Shown here: positions 32,339 to 51,302 of the stretch, piece by piece | How positions within the stretch are numbered: position 1 is the first letter of the stretch | How the letters are laid out: every line of letters begins with the position of its first letter | Assembly (NCBI RefSeq): GCF_020037015.1 | Contig: NZ_JAIQDE010000011.1 | Coordinates: forward strand, 1 to 64,000 | Direction: 5' to 3' | Source: Corallococcus sp. AS-1-6 | GTDB taxonomy: Bacteria > Myxococcota > Myxococcia > Myxococcales > Myxococcaceae | DNA length: 64,000 nt | Made by a program: the position numbers and the translations under genes | The notes under the pieces: model-generated | The model's database searches: none | Told to the model about the DNA's origin: nothing | The model's input: only the letters and a program-made list of their open reading frames with translations

Positions 32339-33409
32339 CTACGGGTAGCAGGCCGCCTGGCGCAGGCCGGTGTCCTCGGGGAAGCCGAGGGCCACGTTGA
32401 AGTTCTGCACGGCCTGGCCGGCCATGCCCTTCACCAGGTTGTCCAGCGCCGCCATCACCGCCACCGAGCGGCCCTTCGTCGCCACGGAGATGTCGCAGAA
32501 GTTGCTGCCCGCCACCGCCGCCACGCGCGGCGTGCCCTCCACGATGCGCACGAACTTCGAGCCCTCGTAGTAGCGGCGGTACTTCTCCGTCAGCGACTGC
32601 GTCACCACCGCGCCGCCGTGCTCCGGCCACTCGAACTGCACGGTGGCGAAGATGCCGCGCACCATGGGCGCCGAGTGCGGCACGAAGGCCAGCCGGTGCC
32701 GCTGCGCGCCGTGCGCCACCAGCATCACCTCCACCTCCGCCTCGTGCTGGTGCTCCAGCGGCTTGTACGCGCGGAAGTCATGCGCGCGCGTCGGGTGGTG
32801 CGTGCCCTCGCCCGGCAGCGAGCCGGAGCCGGACGAGCCCGTCACGCCCGACACCGCCAGGAGCCCCAGCCCCGGCGTGGCCGCGATGGGCAGCAGCGCC
32901 AGTTGCACCGCCGTGGCGAAGCAGCCCGGGTTGGCGATGCGCTTCGCCGTCTTCACCTGCTCGCGCTTCCACTCCGTGAGGCCGTAGGTGAACGTGCCCA
33001 ACAGCTCCGGGGACGGGTGCGGCCGGCCGTAGGCGCCCGCGTACCGGCCCGGGTGGTCCAGGCGGAAGTCGGACGACAGGTCGACGAGCAGCATCCGGTC
33101 CGTGAGCCCCGCGTCCGCCCACTGCTTCTCCAGCCCGGCGAACTGCGTCGCCAGGTCGCCGTGGCCCAGCGCGCTGAACACCACCGGGCGCTGCGAGTCC
33201 GCCAGCCAGCGCCAGTCCGGCTCCGCCTCGAAGCGGCCGTCCACCAGGCCGCGCAGGTGCGGGTGCACCTTGTGGATGGGCGAACCCGCGTGGTGCCGGG
33301 ACACCACGCGGACACCGGCGTTGCCGGGGTGGCCCGCGAGCAGCCGCAACAGCTCGCCTCCGCCGAAACCGGAGGCCCCCAGGATGTAGATGTGCGCAGG
33401 CGACGTCAT
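32339..33409 (-). CDS. argC: N-acyl-gamma-glutamyl-phosphate reductase
   Basis: A 356-residue reductase that converts N-acylglutamyl phosphate to the semialdehyde with NADPH. It has the nucleotide-binding start YILGASGFGGGELLRLLA, the catalytic Cys in ANPGCFATAVQL, and the later HQHEAEVE and VPHSAPMVRG motifs. Last gene of the arginine operon; its ATG overlaps the stop of the preceding P-loop gene by four bases. Confidence 0.93.
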   Translation of the reverse strand: MTSPAHIYILGASGFGGGELLRLLAGHPGNAGVRVVSRHHAGSPIHKVHPHLRGLVDGRFEAEPDWRWLADSQRPVVFSALGHGDLATQFAGLEKQWADAGLTDRMLLVDLSSDFRLDHPGRYAGAYGRPHPSPELLGTFTYGLTEWKREQVKTAKRIANPGCFATAVQLALLPIAATPGLGLLAVSGVTGSSGSGSLPGEGTHHPTRAHDFRAYKPLEHQHEAEVEVMLVAHGAQRHRLAFVPHSAPMVRGIFATVQFEWPEHGGAVVTQSLTEKYRRYYEGSKFVRIVEGTPRVAAVAGSNFCDISVATKGRSVAVMAALDNLVKGMAGQAVQNFNVALGFPEDTGLRQAACYP

Positions 33410-34467
33410 GACTTCCTCCCCGCTCCCAGCTTGGGCGCGAGCTTCTCCACGATGAGATTCCCCAGGGCGTTCGGATCCGCGCGCGCGTTGCGAGCGGGCA
33501 GCCCCACCACCTGCTCCACGAAGCGCACGCCCACCGCGTTGTCCGTGGCGGGCCCGGCCACCATGTCCATCTCGATGCCGTACACCTCGCGCAGGTGCCG
33601 CACACCGCCGGCCGCGCCCACCGGGTCGTTCGCGCACAGGATGAACGCGCCGCCCAGCGCCTTGAGCTCCGGGTCCGCCAGGATGGCCTGCACGCCGTAC
33701 TCGCCCATGATGCCGTCGCCCGTCTCCGCGACGATGACGTCCACGTCCTGGGCCGCCATCTCCGAGAAGACGATGCGCGCCACCTTGGACGCCGTGCGCG
33801 CGCCGGTGCACACGACGCCCGCGTCGGTGAAGTCCATCACCACGTCCGCGCCGCTGTCCTGCATGGACAGGGTGTCACGCATCAGCGACACGCCCGTGAG
33901 CTTCGCGCCGCCCACGCGGTAGCCCGCCTGGGAGAGCTTGCGCACCACCACGCTGGCCGCGTACGTCTTGCCCGCGTTCATGCAGGTGCCCACCACGTAC
34001 ACCACCGGGCACGTCACCGCCCGCGACGTGCCCTTGAGCGCGCCGGTGGAGATGTGCGCGTGCTGGCCCGCGCGCGACTGGAACTCCGGGAAGGTGAGGA
34101 CCTGGCCCAGCACCTCCGCCTCGAAGGGGGCGCCCACGCCCGGGTTGTGCGACGTGCACTTCCCGATGACGCCGCCCATGTTGAGGATGTGGAGCCGGTC
34201 GCCCACCGTGACGGACGTGGGCACGACGCCCTCGTAGCCGTGCAGGGCGTTGCGGTGGCCCAGCGCGCCCACGACGATGTCGCCCGCGTGGAGCGTGACG
34301 AGCCGGCCGTTCACGTCCTCCAACTGGTTGTAGACGCTCTTCTCCCCGTGGATGCGCACCGCGATGACGGCGCCCTCCTCGCACTTGACCTCATCCGTGA
34401 GGTGCACCGTGCGCCCCACCTGGAGGTTGCGGGTGACACTTCCCACCTTGTCGACGTGGATCTTCAT
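33406..34467 (-). CDS. Uncharacterised P-loop protein embedded in the arginine operon
   Basis: A 353-residue protein with two halves. Residues 1-150 are beta-rich with a hydrophobic, Gly/Val-rich character (AGDIVVGALGH, VGDRLHILNMGG). Residues 155-340 form a P-loop fold: VVYVVGTCMNAGKTYAA is a Walker A-like loop, followed by GAKLTGVSLMRDT and IVAETGDGIMGEYGVQ, recalling dethiobiotin-synthetase and DUF1611/DgcN-type proteins. It sits between argG (4 bases) and argC (4-base overlap), so it is co-translated with arginine enzymes. No known arginine gene has this sequence. DUF1611 proteins include a D-glutamate N-acetyltransferase, so a role in making acylglutamate is worth testing, but this is inference. 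Confidence 0.75.
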   Translation of the reverse strand: MKIHVDKVGSVTRNLQVGRTVHLTDEVKCEEGAVIAVRIHGEKSVYNQLEDVNGRLVTLHAGDIVVGALGHRNALHGYEGVVPTSVTVGDRLHILNMGGVIGKCTSHNPGVGAPFEAEVLGQVLTFPEFQSRAGQHAHISTGALKGTSRAVTCPVVYVVGTCMNAGKTYAASVVVRKLSQAGYRVGGAKLTGVSLMRDTLSMQDSGADVVMDFTDAGVVCTGARTASKVARIVFSEMAAQDVDVIVAETGDGIMGEYGVQAILADPELKALGGAFILCANDPVGAAGGVRHLREVYGIEMDMVAGPATDNAVGVRFVEQVVGLPARNARADPNALGNLIVEKLAPKLGAGRKS

Positions 34468-34471
34468 GTCG

Positions 34472-35659
34472 TCACTTCGCTTTCTGCGAGAGCATCTGCG
34501 CGACGCCGTAGAGCTTGGCGAACCCCGCCGCCTCCGTCCCCGTCCACAACACGTTGGCCTCTCCGTACGTGGCCACCTTCGCGTCCATCAGCGAGTGCGG
34601 CGAACGCACGCCTTCCACGACGTGGGCGCGCGGGGTGAGCACCAGCTTCACCTCGCCCGTCACGCGGTCCTGCGAGGAGGCGAGGAACGCCTCCAGGTCC
34701 TTCACCAGCGGGTCGAAGAAGTGCCCCTCGTGCAGGAGCGACCCGTACAGGTTGCCCACCGTCTCCTTCCAGAAGAGCTGCTTGCCCGACAGCACCAGCT
34801 TCTCCAGCTCGCGGTGCGACGCGATGAGCAGGTGCGCCGCCGGGGCCTCGAAGCCCACGCGGCCCTTGATGCCCAGGATGGTGTCGCCCAGGTGCACGCC
34901 CCGGCCGATGCCGTACGGCCGCCCCAGCGCGTTGAGCTTCTCCACCACGTCCACCGCGGACATCGCCTGGCCGTCGAGCGCCACCGGCACGCCCTTGTCG
35001 AAGGAGATGACGAGCGGCCGGGGCTTCAGGTCGGTGGGAATCTCTCCGCCCGGGAAGGCCGCCTCCGGCAGCGTGCTCCACGAGTCCAGCGTCTCCCGGC
35101 CGCCCACGGATGTGCCCCACATGCCCTCGTTGACGGAGTACGTGCCCGTCTTCGCCGGCAGGTGGAAGCCGCGCTCCGCGAGGAAGGAGATCTCCTGCTG
35201 ACGGGAGAGCGCCAGGTCGCGGATGGGGGTGATGAGCTGCAACTGCGGCGCGAGCGTGCGGAAGGCCACGTCGAAGCGGACCTGATCATTCCCCGCGCCG
35301 GTGCTGCCGTGGGCCACGGCCTGCACGCCCAGCTTCTCCGCCATGCGCACGGCCTCCACGGCCTGGCAGGCGCGCTCGGCGGAGACGCTCAGCGGGTAGA
35401 GCTGGCCGCGCAGGACGTTGCCCGCGATGAGGAAGCGCAGGTAGCCCTGGAACAGGGTGTCGCGCGCGTCCACCGTGTGGTGCGCCACCGCGCCCAGCTT
35501 CTGGGACAGGGCCTGGATGCGCTCCAACTGCTCGGGCGGGAAGCCGCCCGTGTCCACGGTGACGGTGGTGACGTCCCAGCCCTGCTCGCGCAGGTACACC
35601 GTGCAGAAGGCGGTATCGAGGCCGCCGGAGAACGCCAGCACCACGGACTTCTTGCTCAT
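34472..35659 (-). CDS. argG: Argininosuccinate synthase
   Basis: A 395-residue enzyme that joins citrulline and aspartate using ATP. The ATP-binding motif VLAFSGGLDTAF is at residues 7-18, followed by HGSTGAGNDQVRF and the GRGVHLGDTILGIKGRVGFEAPA segment. AGGAGT precedes the ATG. Within the operon it needs free citrulline, so the acyl group must be removed by the upstream deacylase. Confidence 0.95.
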   Translation of the reverse strand: MSKKSVVLAFSGGLDTAFCTVYLREQGWDVTTVTVDTGGFPPEQLERIQALSQKLGAVAHHTVDARDTLFQGYLRFLIAGNVLRGQLYPLSVSAERACQAVEAVRMAEKLGVQAVAHGSTGAGNDQVRFDVAFRTLAPQLQLITPIRDLALSRQQEISFLAERGFHLPAKTGTYSVNEGMWGTSVGGRETLDSWSTLPEAAFPGGEIPTDLKPRPLVISFDKGVPVALDGQAMSAVDVVEKLNALGRPYGIGRGVHLGDTILGIKGRVGFEAPAAHLLIASHRELEKLVLSGKQLFWKETVGNLYGSLLHEGHFFDPLVKDLEAFLASSQDRVTGEVKLVLTPRAHVVEGVRSPHSLMDAKVATYGEANVLWTGTEAAGFAKLYGVAQMLSQKAK

Positions 35660-35698: not shown

Positions 35699-37048
35699 TC
35701 AGGGGGCCCAGACGCGCGCGGCGGCCTCGGCTTGCCGTGCGTGGGTGCGCGTGAGCCAGTCGCGCGCCTCCGCCAGCTCCTCGCGCGCGGTGGCGAGGCC
35801 CAGGTTGCCGGCGCCACCCAGGTGGGTGGCCGTCAGCGCGCCGCGGTCCGGCTGGAAGGTGCCTTCGTTCAACTGCCGGCCCACCTCGCGGTACGCGTCG
35901 CGGAAGGGCTGGCCCTTCGCCACGAGCGCGTAGGCGTGGTGCGCGGCGTAGAGCGTGTCGTCGCACGCCGCGCGCGCCTTCTCCGCGTTCACCTTCAGCG
36001 CGGGCACCAGCCGCGCCAGCACGTCCAGCAGCGCCTTCGCGCTGGTGAGTGCCTGGAGGGTGGGGCGCTTCAGCAGTTGGAAGTCACGGTGGTAGCTGGA
36101 GGGAAGCCCGCCGGCCACCGCCTCCACCTGGTGCGCAAGGCCGCGCAGCTCGCGGCAGCGGCCCCGGGCCAGCTCCACCACGTCCGGGTTCTTCTTCTGC
36201 GGCATGATGGACGAGCCGGTCGTGAAGGCATCCGGCAGGGCCAGGAAGCCGAACTCGTCCATGCTGTAGAGCTGCACGTCCCAAAGCCACTTCTCCAGAG
36301 TGCCCGCCACCGAGCACGCCCAGGTGAGCAGCGCCGCCTCATGCCGCCCCCGACTGTCCTGCGCGTCGATGGGGCTGCGTTGAACCCGGGTAAAACCGAG
36401 GAGCCGCGCGACATATTCACGGTCGATGGGCAGCGGCACACCGAAGCCCGCGGCGGCGCCCAGCGGGCAGCGGTCGAGCCGCCCCCACACGCCCTTCAGC
36501 GCCTCCAGCTCCTCCAGCAGCCCTTCCGCGAAGGCCATGCCCCACAGGCCGAAGGTGGACGGCATCGCGCGGCGCAGGTGCGTGTAGCCGGGCAGGGGCA
36601 GGTCCGCGTGGCTTTGCGCGAAGTCCAGGAACGTGCCCGCCAGCTCCGCCGTGCGCGCGCCCAGCGCGAGCAACTCCTCGCGCATGAAGAGGCGCAGGGC
36701 CAGCAGCACCTGGTCGTTGCGCGAGCGCGCCAGGTGGATGCGCTTGCCCGCTTCTCCAATGCGCTCCACGAGCGCGGCCTCCAGCGCGGTGTGGCCGTCC
36801 TCCTGCTCCGGGCGGATGGTGAAGCGGCCCGCGCGGGCCTCGTCGTGCAGCGTGTGCAGGGCGCCCACGAGCGACGCGGCGGCCTCCGGCGCGAGCAGCC
36901 CGACGTGCGCGAGCATGCGCGCGTGCGCGGCGCTGCCCAGCGCGTCGTGCGGCACGAGCGACAGGTCCACCACGGGGTCGTCGCCCACGGTGAAGGCGTG
37001 GATGGCCGCGTCCAGCGGCTGGCCCTTGCCCCACAATGTCTCAGCCAC
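35699..37048 (-). CDS. argH: Argininosuccinate lyase
   Basis: A 449-residue lyase that splits argininosuccinate into arginine and fumarate. It has GSSIMPQKKNPD, the fumarase-superfamily signature, and the HLARSRNDQV motif near residue 95. The GTG at 37048 is the best start: it has GGGGAGG seven bases before and gives VAETLWGKG; the ATG at 37066 has no ribosome-binding site. It overlaps the end of argE by eight bases. Confidence 0.94.
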   Translation of the reverse strand: MAETLWGKGQPLDAAIHAFTVGDDPVVDLSLVPHDALGSAAHARMLAHVGLLAPEAAASLVGALHTLHDEARAGRFTIRPEQEDGHTALEAALVERIGEAGKRIHLARSRNDQVLLALRLFMREELLALGARTAELAGTFLDFAQSHADLPLPGYTHLRRAMPSTFGLWGMAFAEGLLEELEALKGVWGRLDRCPLGAAAGFGVPLPIDREYVARLLGFTRVQRSPIDAQDSRGRHEAALLTWACSVAGTLEKWLWDVQLYSMDEFGFLALPDAFTTGSSIMPQKKNPDVVELARGRCRELRGLAHQVEAVAGGLPSSYHRDFQLLKRPTLQALTSAKALLDVLARLVPALKVNAEKARAACDDTLYAAHHAYALVAKGQPFRDAYREVGRQLNEGTFQPDRGALTATHLGGAGNLGLATAREELAEARDWLTRTHARQAEAAARVWAP

Positions 37049-38111
37049 GCGACACCTCCCCGGCATAGCCGTGCAGCAGTCGTCGATAGAACGCGAGCCC
37101 CGCCTCCAGCTCCGCGCGCGTGAGGTACTCGTTCGCCTGGTGGCTCCGCAGCGTGTCGCCCGGGCCCACCTTCACCGCCGGGATGTCGCCCAGGAACGCC
37201 CAGTCGGACGTGGTGCTGGAGCCCACCGTGTCCTGGCCTGACGCTGCCACCGCCGCGCGCACCAGCGGGTGCGACGCGTCCGTCCCCTTGGGCAGGTAGC
37301 GCGCGGAGTGCACCAGCACCTCGCTCTCCAGCGCCCGGCCCACGTCCTCCGCCACCTTCGCGTGGTCCATGCCCGGCGTGGTGCGCAGGTCCACGAAGAA
37401 CTCGCACCGGTCCGGAATCTGGTTGCGCGCGAGGCCCCCGGCCACCTGCGTCACCTGCGCCCGCGCCTCACCCAACAGCGGGTGCGCGGGGAAGCGCAGG
37501 GCGGACACGGCCTGGATGTCCCGGGCCGCCTTGAGGATGGCGTTGGACTCCGAGCCCAGGCCGCCCGTGTGCGCGTGCGCCACGTGGCCGCTCTTGCCGT
37601 GCGCCACGCAGCGCAGGAGCAACATGCCCCGCTGCGCCGTGCAGGGCTTGAGCGACGTGGGCTCTCCCACGATGGCGGCGTCCAGCGGCCCCAGCGTGGG
37701 CAACAGCGGCCCCAGCCCCTTGCCGCCCGTCTCCTCCTCGGCGGTGAGCGCGAAGACGCACTCCACGCCCTCCGGCGCGCCTTCCGTGAGGAGCGCCTTC
37801 GCGGTGAGGAGCATGGCGGTGACGCAGCCCTTGGCGTCGTTGGCGCCCAGGCCGTAGAGCGTGTCGTCCTTCCACACGGCCTCGTGCGGCTCCGTGGTCC
37901 ACCCGGCGCACGGCTTCACCGTGTCCAGGTGGGAGTTCACGAGCAGGCGCTTCGGCCCGCTGCCCACGCTGAACCACACGTTGTGGCCCTGGCGGTGCAC
38001 GCGGGCACCCCAGGACTCCGCGTGGCCCGCGACGAGGTCCGCGATACGGGCCTCGTCGCCGGAGACGCTGGGCGTGGCGACCAGCGCGGTGAGCAGCTCG
38101 GCGGGGTTCAA
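37041..38111 (-). CDS. argE: M20-family N-acyl-citrulline/ornithine deacylase
   Basis: A 356-residue zinc hydrolase. The metal site begins with HLDTV in NSHLDTVKPCAGW, followed by LYGLGANDAKG with the bridging Asp and by the general base region LTAEEETGGKG. VGEPTSL and TTPGMD follow as in ArgE/DapE relatives. The LGxNDAxG form is seen in deacylases that serve the N-acyl-citrulline pathway, while E. coli ArgE has CDMKG there. It starts with TTG at 38111, overlapping the argB stop (TTGA), a translationally coupled and unusual start. Confidence 0.85.
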   Translation of the reverse strand: MNPAELLTALVATPSVSGDEARIADLVAGHAESWGARVHRQGHNVWFSVGSGPKRLLVNSHLDTVKPCAGWTTEPHEAVWKDDTLYGLGANDAKGCVTAMLLTAKALLTEGAPEGVECVFALTAEEETGGKGLGPLLPTLGPLDAAIVGEPTSLKPCTAQRGMLLLRCVAHGKSGHVAHAHTGGLGSESNAILKAARDIQAVSALRFPAHPLLGEARAQVTQVAGGLARNQIPDRCEFFVDLRTTPGMDHAKVAEDVGRALESEVLVHSARYLPKGTDASHPLVRAAVAASGQDTVGSSTTSDWAFLGDIPAVKVGPGDTLRSHQANEYLTRAELEAGLAFYRRLLHGYAGEVSRG

Positions 38112-39034
38112 CCCTTGGCCTCGCCGTGCTTCACCGGGTGCTCGCGCACGACCATGGTGCCGCTGCCCTCGTTGGTGAAGACCTCCTCCAACAGGGCATC
38201 GGACTGCTTGCCGCTCACCAGGTGTACGCTGCCCACGCCGCCCACGAGCGCGTGGCGCATGGCGTGCGCCTTGGGACGCATTCCGCCCGTGAGCCGGCCT
38301 TCGGCCTCCAGCGACGCCAGGTCCGACAGCGTGGCCAGCGAGATGAGCGACGACGGGTCGGAGACGTCCTTGAGGAGCCCCGGCACCTCCACCAGGAAGA
38401 AGAGCTTCTCCGCGTGCAGCGCCGCCGCCAGGGCCGCCGCCACCGTGTCCGCGTTGGTGTTGTAGACGGCGCCGTCCTGGCCGCCCGACAGCGGGGCGAT
38501 GACCGGCACGTAGTCTGCGGAGCGCAGGTGCTCCACGACGCGCGTGTCCACGGACTCGATGTCGCCCACGAGGCCGTAGTCCACCATGCGCCCCTGCGTC
38601 TCGCCGGGCTCCGTCACCAGCACGGGCGGGCGCTTGCGCGCCTTGATGAGGCCCGCGTCCACGCCGGACAGGCCCACCGCGGGCACGCCCGCGGCCTGGA
38701 GGTCCGCGAGCAGGTCCGTGTGCAGCTTGCCCGCCAGCACCATCTTCGCCGCGTCCAGCACGGGCGCGGAGGTGACGCGGCGGCCCGCCACCTTCTCGAT
38801 GGGCAGGTGCAGGGCGTCACACAGCGAGTCCAGCTCCGGACCGCCGCCGTGCACCACGACGGGGCGGATGGAGAAGGCCCACAGGAGGGCGATCTGCTCG
38901 CACGCCGTCTTGCGGGTGCGCGGATCCGTCAGCACGGCCCCGCCCAGCTTCACCACGAACGTCTTGCTGCGGAACTGCTTCACGTACTTCGCCGCGTTGC
39001 GAAGGGCGGCGTACGGATCGGGAGACAAGGGCAC
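38108..39034 (-). CDS. argB: N-acylglutamate kinase
   Basis: A 308-residue amino-acid kinase that phosphorylates acylglutamate. VVKLGGAVL is the phosphate-binding Lys-Gly motif, VVHGGGPE the second, and PVIAPLSGGQDGAVYNTNADTVA and GGMRPK complete the family pattern. It starts with GTG (39034) after AGAGG, 60 bases downstream of the transcarbamylase. The N-terminal helix found in arginine-inhibited hexameric enzymes is partly present (AALRNAAKYVKQF), so feedback control by arginine is possible. Confidence 0.92.
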   Translation of the reverse strand: MPLSPDPYAALRNAAKYVKQFRSKTFVVKLGGAVLTDPRTRKTACEQIALLWAFSIRPVVVHGGGPELDSLCDALHLPIEKVAGRRVTSAPVLDAAKMVLAGKLHTDLLADLQAAGVPAVGLSGVDAGLIKARKRPPVLVTEPGETQGRMVDYGLVGDIESVDTRVVEHLRSADYVPVIAPLSGGQDGAVYNTNADTVAAALAAALHAEKLFFLVEVPGLLKDVSDPSSLISLATLSDLASLEAEGRLTGGMRPKAHAMRHALVGGVGSVHLVSGKQSDALLEEVFTNEGSGTMVVREHPVKHGEAKG

Positions 39035-39094: not shown

Positions 39095-40099
39095 TCAGCC
39101 GCCGCGCATCCAGGCCAGGAGGGCGCGCTGCACGTGGTAGCGGTTGCCCGCCTCGTCCACGACGCGGCTGCTCGAGTGGTCCAGCACCTCGTCGGCGACC
39201 TCCACGTTGCGGCGCACGGGCAGGCAGTGGAGGAAGGCCGCGTCCTTCGAGGCCTTCGCCATGTGCCGGCGCGTGGGCATCCAGCCCGAGTACGACGCGA
39301 GCAGCGCCGCGACGTCCGTGGGCGTGCTCGCCGTCTGCGCGGTGGGGCCCCAGGACTTCGCGTACACGGCGCGGCTGCCCACCAGCGCCTCGTCCTGGTC
39401 GTGCGTGTACGTGATGCTGCCGCCGGTGGCCCTGGCGTACGCCTCCGCCTCCGCGCGCACGGCCGGGTGCAGGTCGAAGCCCGGCGGATGCGCCACGCGC
39501 ACCTCGCAGCCCGCGGCCGCCGCGGACAGGAGGAAGGAGTTGGGCACGGCCTTGGGCAGCGGCTTGATGTGCGGCGCCCAGGTGAGCGTCACCGGCAGCT
39601 TCTTCGTGGTGCCGAACGTCTCGCGCAGGGTGAGCGCGTCCGCCAGGCCCTGGCAGGGGTGCTCGCGCGCGGACTCCATGCTCACCACCGGCACGGTGGC
39701 CCACTTGCGGAAGGCGTTGATGACGGGGTCGGCCTCATCCTCCTCGTCACCGCCACCCTGGGAGAAGGTGCGGATGCCGAGCATGTCCACGAAGCGCGAC
39801 AGGACGGGCGACGCCTCCTTGATGTGCTCCGCGCGGTCCGCGTTCATCACCGCGCCGGGCCGGTCCTCCAGCTTCCACACGCCAGAGCCCACGTCGAGCA
39901 CGATGGCGTGCCCGCCCGCGCGCAGCATCACCGCCTCGAAGGACGTGCGCGTGCGCAGGGACGGGTTGAAGAACACCATGCCCAGGAGCTTCCCCGGGAA
40001 GATGTGCCCCGGATCCTTCTGCTTCCACGCGGCCGCCTGCGAGAGGACCGCCTCGACGCCTTCCGGGCCCAGGTCCTGGATGCGGGTGACATGCTTCAT
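39095..40099 (-). CDS. argF': N-acyl-ornithine transcarbamylase (predicted succinyl- rather than acetyl-ornithine type)
   Basis: A 334-residue transcarbamylase. Carbamoyl-phosphate motifs are NPSLRTRTSFE (44-54) and HPCQ; HCLPVRRN is the distal motif. FFNPSLRTRTSF, VLDVGSGVWKLE, TWAPH.KPLP.AVPNSF and YAKSWG follow N-acetyl- and N-succinylornithine transcarbamylases, not ArgF. The residue that separates those two classes is Glu92 in the Xanthomonas acetyl enzyme and Pro90 in the Bacteroides succinyl enzyme; here it is Ala90 in DRAEH. The carboxylated Lys302 of the acetyl enzyme is replaced by Glu in RRNVEVAD. Ala at this position converts the Xanthomonas enzyme to succinylornithine use, as I recall from published mutants. 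The ATG at 40099 was chosen because the frame upstream enters the operator. Confidence 0.88.
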   Translation of the reverse strand: MKHVTRIQDLGPEGVEAVLSQAAAWKQKDPGHIFPGKLLGMVFFNPSLRTRTSFEAVMLRAGGHAIVLDVGSGVWKLEDRPGAVMNADRAEHIKEASPVLSRFVDMLGIRTFSQGGGDEEDEADPVINAFRKWATVPVVSMESAREHPCQGLADALTLRETFGTTKKLPVTLTWAPHIKPLPKAVPNSFLLSAAAAGCEVRVAHPPGFDLHPAVRAEAEAYARATGGSITYTHDQDEALVGSRAVYAKSWGPTAQTASTPTDVAALLASYSGWMPTRRHMAKASKDAAFLHCLPVRRNVEVADEVLDHSSSRVVDEAGNRYHVQRALLAWMRGG

Positions 40100-40143
40100 G
40101 GGCTTCGTGCTCCCCCGGCCGCGCCGGATGGGTGGAGACTGCT

Positions 40144-40171
40144 GAATATGCATCCGAATTCGTGCATATTC
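40144..40171. promoter_or_regulatory. Candidate ArgR operator (28-bp palindrome)
   Basis: GAATATGCA and TGCATATTC form a perfect 9-base inverted repeat with a 10-base spacer that itself contains CGAATTC. It is AT-rich in a GC-rich genome and resembles paired ARG boxes (TGAAT...ATTCA). It covers about +9 to +36 of the predicted transcript of the arginine operon, where a repressor would block elongation. More TATTCA/TGAAT half-sites occur at 40216-40280 before argR. Confidence 0.65.
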
Positions 40172-40186
40172 GTTGAGGAGGCGCGG

Positions 40187-40214
40187 ATATTATGCAGAAC
40201 GGCGCAGCGCACAA
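40187..40214 (-). promoter_or_regulatory. Candidate sigma-70 promoter of the arginine operon
   Basis: On the minus strand TTGTGC (40214-40209) and TAATAT (40192-40187) are separated by 16 bases. The start would be near 40180, immediately before the ArgR palindrome. Confidence 0.5.
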
Positions 40215-40279
40215 GAACATTCACTGGGATTTTTCATGCGCCTTGCGTGCGTATTCAGCCGCATGCATGGTGAACGTGA

Positions 40280-40699
40280 ATGAACCTGGACGACGCCATC
40301 CTTGAGCTCATCTCCCGGCAGGACGTTCCGGATCAGTTCGTCCTGCAGTCGTTGCTCGAAGAGGCAGGGCACACGCCCAGCCAGTCCACGCTGTCGCGGC
40401 GGCTGAAGAAGCTGAGCGTGCAGAAGGTGAACGGGCGCTATCAGCGCGCCGAGCCGCCGGTGGCGCCCGTGCCGCTGGCGCCGACGGTGACCATCATCGA
40501 GGCGCCGCCCAACATGCTGGTGCTGAAGACGGCGCCCGGCTACGCGCAGATCTTCGGGCTGGCGCTGGACCGCGAGGAGGTAGAGGGCCTGGCGGGCACG
40601 GTGGCGGGGGACGACACCATCTTCATCGCGGTGAGGGACCCGTCCTACCTGCGGGACGTGCGCGAGGTGGTGGAGGAGCTCATCCAGCGCGGCCCGTGA
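40280..40699 (+). CDS. argR: Arginine repressor ArgR
   Basis: A 139-residue regulator. The N-terminal winged helix (1-65) has TPSQSTLSRRLKKLSVQKVNGRY; the C-terminal arginine-binding/oligomerisation domain has VLKTAPGYAQIFGLALD and AGDDTIFIAVRD, where GDDT holds the arginine-contacting Asp pair. It is divergent from the arginine operon, and the shared 180-base region carries the palindrome and half-sites, so it probably also controls itself. The ribosome-binding site is weak (GGTGA). Confidence 0.92.
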   Translation: MNLDDAILELISRQDVPDQFVLQSLLEEAGHTPSQSTLSRRLKKLSVQKVNGRYQRAEPPVAPVPLAPTVTIIEAPPNMLVLKTAPGYAQIFGLALDREEVEGLAGTVAGDDTIFIAVRDPSYLRDVREVVEELIQRGP

Positions 40700-49904: not shown

Positions 49905-51302
49905 CTACTCGCTCCGGGCGCGGCTTTCGAAGCGCGTGTACTCCGCGAGGAACACCAGCTCGACGGACCCGATGGGGCCGTTTCGCTGCTTGGCGACGAT
50001 GAGCTCCACGGGGATGACGGTGTTTCCGCCTCCGCCCCCGCCGCCGCCACCACCCCCGCCGCCTCCTCCTCCACCCCCTTCGCCGTCCTCCTCCGTCTCA
50101 CGGTGGATGAACATCACCACGTCGGCGTCCTGCTCGATGGAGCCGGACTCACGCAGGTCGGAGAGCATGGGCTTGCCGCCCTTGCGCTCCTCCACCTTAC
50201 GGCTGAGCTGGCTGAGCGCGATGATGGGCACCTCCAGCTCCTTGGCCAGTTGCTTGAGCGCGCGGGAGATCTCCGCCACTTCCAACTGGCGGCTCTCCAC
50301 CTTGCCCTTCTGGTGCATCAGTTGGAGGTAGTCGATGACGATGAGCGACAGGCGCGGGTCCTTCTGCTTCACGCGCCGCGCCTTCGCGCGCAGGTCGAAC
50401 GGGGACAGGCCGCCGGAGTCGTCGATGTAGATGGGCGCGTTGTAGAGCGCGCCCGCCATCTCCTGGAACTTCTCCTCGTCGTGCGGGGACAGCCGGCCGC
50501 CGCGCAGCTTCTTCATGTCCACGCGCGCCGTGGACGCGAGCAGACGCATGAGGAGCTGATCCGCGGGCATTTCCAGGCTGAAGATGCCGACGGCCTTGTT
50601 CTCCTTCAGCGCCGCGTGCACCGCGATGTTCATGGCGAAGGACGTCTTGCCGATGCCGGGACGCGCCGCGAGGATGATGAGCTCACCGGCGTGCAGGCCG
50701 GTGAGCTGGTTGTCCAGGTCGATGTAGCCCGTGGACAGGCCCGTCACGCCCGTCGCCGCGGTCTTCATCTTGTCCAGCAGGTCGAGCGTCTGCTCCATCA
50801 GCTCGCTGACCGGACGCAGGTCGCCTTCGCGCTTCTTCTCCGCGAGGAGGAAGACCTTGCGCTCGGCCTCGTCGAGCAGGACCTCCAGCTCGCCCGTCTC
50901 CTGGCTGGCGAGGTCTTGAATCTCCCGGCCCACGTTGGCCAGGCGCCGGCGCAGCGCCTGGTCCTTGACGATGTGGGCGTACTGGACGGCGTTGGCCGCC
51001 AGCGGGACGACCTGGTCCAGGCCCATCAGGTACGCGGGGCCGCCCACCGCGACGAGCTGGCCCAGGACCTTGAGCTCCTCCGCGAGCGTCAGGTGGTCCA
51101 CCTGCTTGCTCTGCTGATCCAGCCGCATCATCGCGGCGAAGATCTGCGCGTGCGAAGGGCTGGCGAAGTCGTCCGCGTGGACGACCTCCGCCACGGGCGT
51201 GATGAGCCCGTTGTCCGCCAGCACGGCGCCCAGCACCGCACGCTCCGCGGCGAGATCCTCGTGGACCCGCCGTCCTTCCCTACCGTCCAGGACGTTCTGC
51301 AT
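49905..51302 (-). CDS. dnaB: Replicative DNA helicase DnaB with an 18-glycine insertion
   Basis: A 465-residue hexameric helicase. The N-terminal domain begins at AAERAVLGAVL; the RecA-type domain starts at about 185 with Walker A ARPGIGKTSFAMN, Walker B LSLIVIDYLQLM and the SQLSRKVEER region. Residues 409-426 are 18 consecutive glycines inside the end of the RecA domain, between FIHRETEEDGE and NTVIPVELIVAKQRNG. Bacterial DnaB has a short loop here. The rest is normal, so the enzyme should be functional with a flexible loop. Confidence 0.95.
   Translation of the reverse strand: MQNVLDGREGRRVHEDLAAERAVLGAVLADNGLITPVAEVVHADDFASPSHAQIFAAMMRLDQQSKQVDHLTLAEELKVLGQLVAVGGPAYLMGLDQVVPLAANAVQYAHIVKDQALRRRLANVGREIQDLASQETGELEVLLDEAERKVFLLAEKKREGDLRPVSELMEQTLDLLDKMKTAATGVTGLSTGYIDLDNQLTGLHAGELIILAARPGIGKTSFAMNIAVHAALKENKAVGIFSLEMPADQLLMRLLASTARVDMKKLRGGRLSPHDEEKFQEMAGALYNAPIYIDDSGGLSPFDLRAKARRVKQKDPRLSLIVIDYLQLMHQKGKVESRQLEVAEISRALKQLAKELEVPIIALSQLSRKVEERKGGKPMLSDLRESGSIEQDADVVMFIHRETEEDGEGGGGGGGGGGGGGGGGGGNTVIPVELIVAKQRNGPIGSVELVFLAEYTRFESRARSE
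50025..50078 (-). repeat. Poly-glycine codon tract in dnaB
   Basis: 18 GGN codons in a row, using GGC, GGA, GGG and GGT in mixed order, so it is not a simple recent trinucleotide expansion. Confidence 0.95.

Follow-up and report, generated by a model that had tools for sequence, protein, structure and literature searches.

The arginine operon of Corallococcus sp. AS-1-6 raises two linked questions: which acyl group is carried by the intermediates that its transcarbamylase would use, and which protein puts that group on glutamate. We addressed them with the window (the first 64,000 nucleotides of contig NZ_JAIQDE010000011.1), the rest of the genome, and related gene clusters in other bacteria. 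Table 1 lists the features discussed.

Table 1. Features of the arginine locus, in window coordinates.
Feature	Position	Strand	Basis
argC, N-acyl-gamma-glutamyl-phosphate reductase	32339..33409	-	domain and family models
P-loop protein of 353 aa, uncharacterised; candidate N-acyl(succinyl)glutamate synthase	33406..34467	-	context, alignment, predicted structure
argG, argininosuccinate synthase	34472..35659	-	domain and family models
argH, argininosuccinate lyase	35699..37066	-	domain and family models
M20 metallo-deacylase, probably N-acyl(succinyl)citrulline deacylase; overlaps argB	37041..38111	-	models; 3ct9 match of orthologue
argB, single-domain N-acylglutamate kinase, 308 aa, without fused N-acetyltransferase domain	38108..39034	-	domain and family models
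N-acyl-ornithine transcarbamylase, succinyl (SOTCase) type, 334 aa	39095..40099	-	motifs, model scores, PDB alignment, tree
Glu300 codon, equivalent of acetyl-enzyme Lys302	39200..39202	-	PDB alignment
Pro182 codon, equivalent of acetyl-enzyme Asn185	39554..39556	-	offset counted on PDB alignment
Ala90 codon, acetyl/succinyl specificity residue (X. campestris Glu92, B. fragilis Pro90)	39830..39832	-	PDB alignments, Myxococcaceae alignment, rule in PMC4581275
Palindrome GAATATGCA-N10-TGCATATTC, probable ArgR operator	40144..40171		repeat finder
argR, arginine repressor, divergent from operon	40280..40699	+	domain and family models

In the direction of transcription, the operon runs from the transcarbamylase through argB, the M20 gene, argH, argG and a gene for a 353-aa protein to argC. 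The first five gaps are 60, -4, -26, 39 and 4 nt, the last of these placing the 353-aa gene immediately after argG, and its stop codon overlaps the argC start (ATGA). The original prediction had described a divergent M20 deacylase; the M20 gene is real, but it is codirectional with the transcarbamylase and the divergent gene is argR. The interval between argR and the operon (40100-40279) contains a perfect 9-nt inverted repeat, GAATATGCA-N10-TGCATATTC, and a second, imperfect copy of it towards argR; the palindrome is partly conserved in Citreicoccus and Myxococcus. A first search with an ArgR-box pattern gave no match and the palindrome came from a repeat finder; we regard it as a probable ArgR operator. 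The argD gene is unlinked, with a match over cut-off elsewhere in the genome. Further along the window, the ORF of a DnaB-like replicative helicase (49905-51302, minus strand) encodes a run of about 20 glycines near its C-terminus.

The transcarbamylase ORF, which starts with an ATG at 40099, contains the motifs FFNPSLRTRTSF, DRAEH, TWAPHIKPLPKAVPNSF and HCLPVRRN, the first and the last two of which had been the basis for the original claim that the enzyme is not ArgF. It scored 446 bits against the NCBIfam model for N-acetylornithine carbamoyltransferase (cut-off 288) and remained under the cut-off of every NCBIfam OTCase model (204.9 versus 306 and 167.5 versus 280.85 bits). The top PDB chains found by phmmer were those of the Xanthomonas campestris acetyl enzyme (AOTCase; 3kzc and mutants), with the E92A mutant 3l02 scoring best and the Bacteroides fragilis SOTCase (1js1, 2fg6) ranking after them, such that by score the window enzyme is nearer overall to the Xanthomonas protein, a member of the same knotted family. 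A proline-rich loop together with a Trp in the 80s loop is the published criterion for knotted transcarbamylases (PMC4581275), and it is met here by TWAPHIKPLPKAVPNSF and by Trp75 in GVWKLE. In our tree, for which the Xanthomonas row was taken from the printed PDB alignment of chain 3m5c, the 23 enzymes linked to the 353-aa gene form one clade (support 95/85) adjoining the acetyl clade (100/100), which includes X. campestris; YgeW and the OTCases fall outside both, and the window enzyme lies far from the OTCases. Placement among true ArgF proteins would have refuted the original claim, which survived this check. Although the CP-binding and HCLP motifs are common to the whole superfamily and would also suit an ordinary ornithine carbamoyltransferase, the model scores, the proline-rich loop and Trp75, the specificity residues described below and the tree all contradict that reading, and we reject it with very little reservation. 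Judged by its sequence, the enzyme is a knotted N-acyl-ornithine transcarbamylase, whose substrate preference can only be inferred. YgeW-like proteins from five Myxococcota genomes that matched the transcarbamylase profile (G061, G062, G063, G065 and G067) were set aside; the YgeW-like knotted transcarbamylases at loci L169-L173, in several Myxococcota, have no recognised arginine genes nearby.

Three positions have been reported to discriminate between the acetyl and succinyl enzymes: Glu92, Asn185 and Lys302 of AOTCase correspond to A/S/P/V/Q, P and V/I/E, respectively, in SOTCase (Shi, Allewell and Tuchman, PMC4581275), and according to GapMind a preference for the succinyl substrate is caused by any of the residues S, P, A and V at position 90 (PMC7311316). 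The window enzyme is succinyl-type at all three, with Ala90, Pro182 and Glu300 where X. campestris has Glu, Asn and Lys; it fails the AOTCase residue criterion as well as lying outside the AOTCase clade. The placement of Ala90, within DRAEH, at the specificity position was correctly predicted: it aligns with Xanthomonas position 92 in the PDB-chain alignment, and a fragment that aligns without gaps on B. fragilis residues 73-113 makes it the equivalent of Pro90. That fragment had been changed at two residues (K for R89 and P for A90) so that the Bacteroides protein would be picked up, and its alignment speaks for position only, not for similarity. Ala90 is not a sequencing error, because it is invariant in a 10-member Myxococcaceae alignment. 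The change from Asn185 to Pro182 had gone unmentioned in the original prediction. The replacement of Lys302 by Glu, which had been included, is confirmed as to position (Glu300 is opposite Lys302) but is weak evidence alone, and we rejected it as a decisive mark: two related clusters keep Lys with Val at 90. In the Xanthomonas enzyme Lys302 is carboxylated, and Glu can substitute for the carboxylated residue, which leaves Glu300 with little to tell us about which acyl group is used. With the B. fragilis SOTCase the window enzyme shares the TWAPH..PLP.AVPNSF loop, the small size of residue 90, a proline where AOTCase has Asn185, and an anabolic arginine context; it differs in having Ala90 rather than Pro90. 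Succinate is anchored in the B. fragilis enzyme by His176, Arg178 and Arg278, of which the first is conserved here as His177 and the second is replaced by Lys179, so that the anchoring residues do not settle the matter either way.

For the deacylase, we used the Myxococcus xanthus orthologue of the window M20 protein, which matched 3ct9 with 209 bits, versus 82 bits for the X. campestris acetylcitrulline deacetylase (2f7v) and 75 for Escherichia coli ArgE. We take 3ct9 to be a B. thetaiotaomicron protein, possibly BT3549. The latter is GapMind's candidate succinylcitrulline desuccinylase (PMC7311316).

Six other Myxococcota genomes provide a natural contrast, in that they encode a knotted enzyme but lack the 353-aa gene. 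All six of these enzymes show Glu, Asn and Lys at positions 90, 185 and 302, respectively, whereas in the partner transcarbamylase of the 353-aa gene residue 90, wherever it can be read, is A, P, S, T or V and never E. In all three of the Glu90 Myxococcota clusters in which argB was read, it encodes a fusion with an N-acetyltransferase domain, an arrangement like that of Xanthomonas NAGS/K and unlike the window's argB. Similarly, the deacylases of the Glu90 clusters share only 25-27% identity with the window M20 protein, against 39-76% for those sampled from clusters with the 353-aa gene. These contrasts imply that residue 90, the deacylase and the acylating module switch as a set. The Xanthomonas-type cluster (Glu90 transcarbamylase, argG, M20, argB-NAT, argC and argH) is seen at loci L174-L179, in deep-branching Myxococcota.

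What, then, acylates glutamate in Corallococcus? Its 9.5-Mb genome has no ArgJ and no ArgA over the cut-off (no full-length ArgA), and among 39 of its GNAT proteins none matches a glutamate N-acyltransferase model at 1e-10. Myxococcaceae relatives without this operon instead have argC-argJ-argB-argR-argH-argF. The 353-aa gene, which the original prediction passed over, is the only one in the window operon without a known role, and an argD-like aminotransferase fills the remaining gap in many of the clusters with the 353-aa gene outside the Myxococcaceae. With the other arginine steps assigned in many clusters, the 353-aa gene and the acylation of glutamate are the sole leftovers. This makes the 353-aa gene the strongest contender for the first enzyme that is otherwise lacking, both here and in at least seven other phyla, with catalysis inferred.

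The distribution of the gene fits with that of the transcarbamylase: the two are present in the same 19 of 59 relatives. Among 195 Myxococcota genomes, 59 have a strong match to the 353-aa protein and 57 of these also have the transcarbamylase; in the two that do not, the 353-aa gene lies within about 100 bases of the contig start. ArgJ is found in none of the 59 strong carriers versus 90 of the other 136 Myxococcota, and in none of the 19 genomes carrying the 353-aa gene outside the Myxococcaceae. Since a single family accounts for most of the 59 carriers, these counts are not independent of one another and overstate the support; the independent support for the role of the 353-aa protein is its spread over phyla. 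When GTDB contigs were scanned, the gene turned up at 42 loci from at least eight phyla, with carriers in Myxococcota, Holophagaceae, Gammaproteobacteria, Verrucomicrobiota, Eisenbacteria, Armatimonadetes, Phycisphaerae and Elusimicrobia. In all 42 the gene is part of an arginine cluster, where it adjoins argC or the transcarbamylase, and all but L125, whose contig is cut, include a transcarbamylase of this type. The gammaproteobacterial clusters (L122-L127) have no M20 gene similar to the window's alongside, which weighs against the scheme proposed below. Two records deserve mention for other reasons: L115 (BNCN01000006.1), labelled Comamonas sp. KCTC 72670, contains a Myxococcus arginine operon at about 84% identity and, from its resemblance to neighbouring Myxococcus loci, looks mislabelled, and in a Myxococcaceae MAG (L103, 6774-8612) the matches to M20 and argH are truncated or broken up, for which an assembly error may be responsible.

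The 23 aligned members of the 353-aa family are 45-100% identical, with DK, YNQLEDV, GR, a GKT P-loop and GDG invariant. AlphaFold gave a model with a pLDDT of 90 and a pTM of 0.87, the best structural match of which is 2g0t (Z 17.6, over model residues 98-346). It also resembles the DUF1611 structure 2obn (Z 16.1) and, with a Z of 14.9, 7xrj, whose title names it as the N-acetyltransferase DgcN, as well as CTP synthase and dethiobiotin synthetase (BioD), which match at Z 15-16.6 over residues 150-350 only. The beta-rich N-terminal half has no structural match above Z 3.1. At the sequence level, the protein misses the gathering score of Pfam PF07755 (23.3 versus 25 bits), hhalign aligned only the P-loop (6%) with DUF1611/DgcN, and no ArgJ, N-Ac-Glu-synth or GNAT domain was detected (Pfam up to E = 1, NCBIfam to 0.001). 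We therefore do not regard it as a proven member of DUF1611, the sequence evidence for which failed: its P-loop half is predicted to fold like DUF1611/DgcN, with CTP synthase and BioD scoring almost as high, and without demonstrated sequence homology. The predicted likeness to DgcN, 2g0t and 2obn extends over the C-terminal P-loop fold, including the strands before the P-loop, and both DgcN and the 353-aa protein would acylate the amino group of glutamate; the N-terminal half of the latter is unmatched, the sequence likeness is limited to the P-loop, and the pathway and stereochemistry differ. Yu et al. (2023, cited in PMC12363236) are reported to have found that DgcN acetylates D-glutamate, and the PDB title of 7xrj is the other source for this activity. 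The model leaves room for the idea that the 353-aa protein may work like DgcN, without membership of DUF1611 being claimed. DgcN plus a racemase as a general source of N-acetyl-L-glutamate was rejected, because no true DUF1611 protein was found in several cluster-bearing genomes (e.g. G030, G032, G112 and G116-G118). The Corallococcus genome itself encodes a true DUF1611/DgcN-like protein elsewhere (G000:C76:331420-332010; L166, L220), whose similarity to 7xrj reaches 1e-119.

The alternative that best withstands these data keeps the succinylated route but assigns its first step to an unlinked GNAT, leaving the 353-aa protein some other employment such as flux regulation or help to ArgB/ArgC. 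There is precedent in Bacteroides, where the first step is carried out by the GNAT BT3761/ArgA2 (PMC7311316, PMC9026213), and a family without a curated model could hide among the roughly 40 GNATs of this genome, no direct search with a Bacteroides-type GNAT being behind our negative result. Against this, none of the 39 GNATs matched a synthase model, every such cluster in at least eight phyla has the 353-aa protein, encoded beside argC or beside the transcarbamylase, and acetyl-type clusters have a fused N-acetyltransferase domain in its place. We consider this alternative unlikely, if still worth keeping in mind.

Somewhat harder to sustain is an acetylated pathway, in which the Ala90 enzyme would use N-acetylornithine and the 353-aa protein, if it is an acyltransferase, would use acetyl-CoA like DgcN. 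The database model that the transcarbamylase fits is named for N-acetylornithine, reviews list M. xanthus with the acetylornithinase ArgE (PMC1382215, PMC1865377), and DgcN, the closest functional relative by fold, is titled an N-acetyltransferase. However, the three discriminating residues are all succinyl-type, including an alanine at position 90 that predicts a succinyl preference under the GapMind rule (PMC7311316), the deacylase is more like 3ct9 than like the X. campestris enzyme, and acetyl-type clusters from the same phylum have Glu90, which together render acetylation improbable. More doubtful again is an acyl group that is neither acetyl nor succinyl but of similar size, which a small residue at position 90 would accommodate. 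That position does vary (A, P, S, T, V), a lysine stands here in place of the B. fragilis anchoring residue Arg178, and a P-loop enzyme could take an unusual donor, but nothing speaks positively for another acyl group, and both the transcarbamylase and the deacylase resemble those of the Bacteroidetes succinyl pathway.

We return to succinyl-type arginine biosynthesis begun by the 353-aa P-loop protein, which we consider likely as a whole, with all substrates and the identity of the succinyl group inferred. In this scheme the 353-aa protein would acylate L-glutamate, presumably from an acyl-CoA donor; ArgB and ArgC would convert the acylglutamate to the semialdehyde, which the unlinked ArgD would aminate to N-acylornithine; the Ala90 transcarbamylase would then form N-acylcitrulline, from which the M20 enzyme would strip the acyl group, leaving ArgG and ArgH to complete arginine. 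The enzyme family, the succinyl-type residues, the gene content and linkage, and the absence of ArgJ, full-length ArgA and any GNAT matching a synthase model are observed. That the route passes through an acylated, probably succinylated, citrulline, as originally proposed, is supported by sequence, tree and gene context, although substrate use remains an inference. For the 353-aa protein, a function as a glutamate N-acylating enzyme is inferred from context, and we favour it with some confidence. It would be an N-acyl-(probably succinyl)glutamate synthase of a new kind that is not a GNAT, an activity inferred without assay data.

Most Bacteroidetes use a succinylated arginine pathway according to GapMind (PMC7311316), and the alternative first enzymes in the papers we searched are the GNAT ArgA2 of Bacteroidetes and the M20-like ArgA3 of Veillonella and Dialister (PMC9026213). 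With the Bacteroidetes pathway (BT3717, BT3761, BT3549) the window operon shares the acylated citrulline route and a transcarbamylase of the succinyl type, and the M20 deacylases are related too, to the extent that the 3ct9 match reveals it; the difference is in the first step, for which Bacteroidetes have a GNAT (ArgA2/BT3761) and the window has no recognised GNAT but the P-loop protein in its place. We lean, if only modestly, towards the broader proposal that the 353-aa protein founds a new family of P-loop N-acyl-(succinyl)glutamate synthases, unrelated to ArgA, ArgJ, GNATs or LysX-type ligases, that starts succinylated arginine biosynthesis in eight phyla (Myxococcota, Acidobacteriota, Pseudomonadota, Verrucomicrobiota, Planctomycetota, Armatimonadota, Elusimicrobiota and Eiseniibacteriota), its catalysis again being inferred. 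Among the papers searched we found no description of the protein, and the only two that name DUF1611 both concern Dickeya, with arginine absent from the titles; most subscription journals were not covered by our search, and an earlier report cannot be excluded.

On the evidence of sequence, the succinylated arginine pathway described for Bacteroidetes extends to eight further phyla or more. One of the organisms concerned is M. xanthus, a model predator that reviews list with the acetylated route. If the 353-aa protein is indeed the synthase, the opening step of arginine biosynthesis, which commits the pathway and is often under feedback control, would have been solved independently once more, and a P-loop fold like that of DUF1611 would have been put to catalytic use on glutamate a second time. 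The annotation gap that automated pipelines have left in all of these genomes would then be closed as well.
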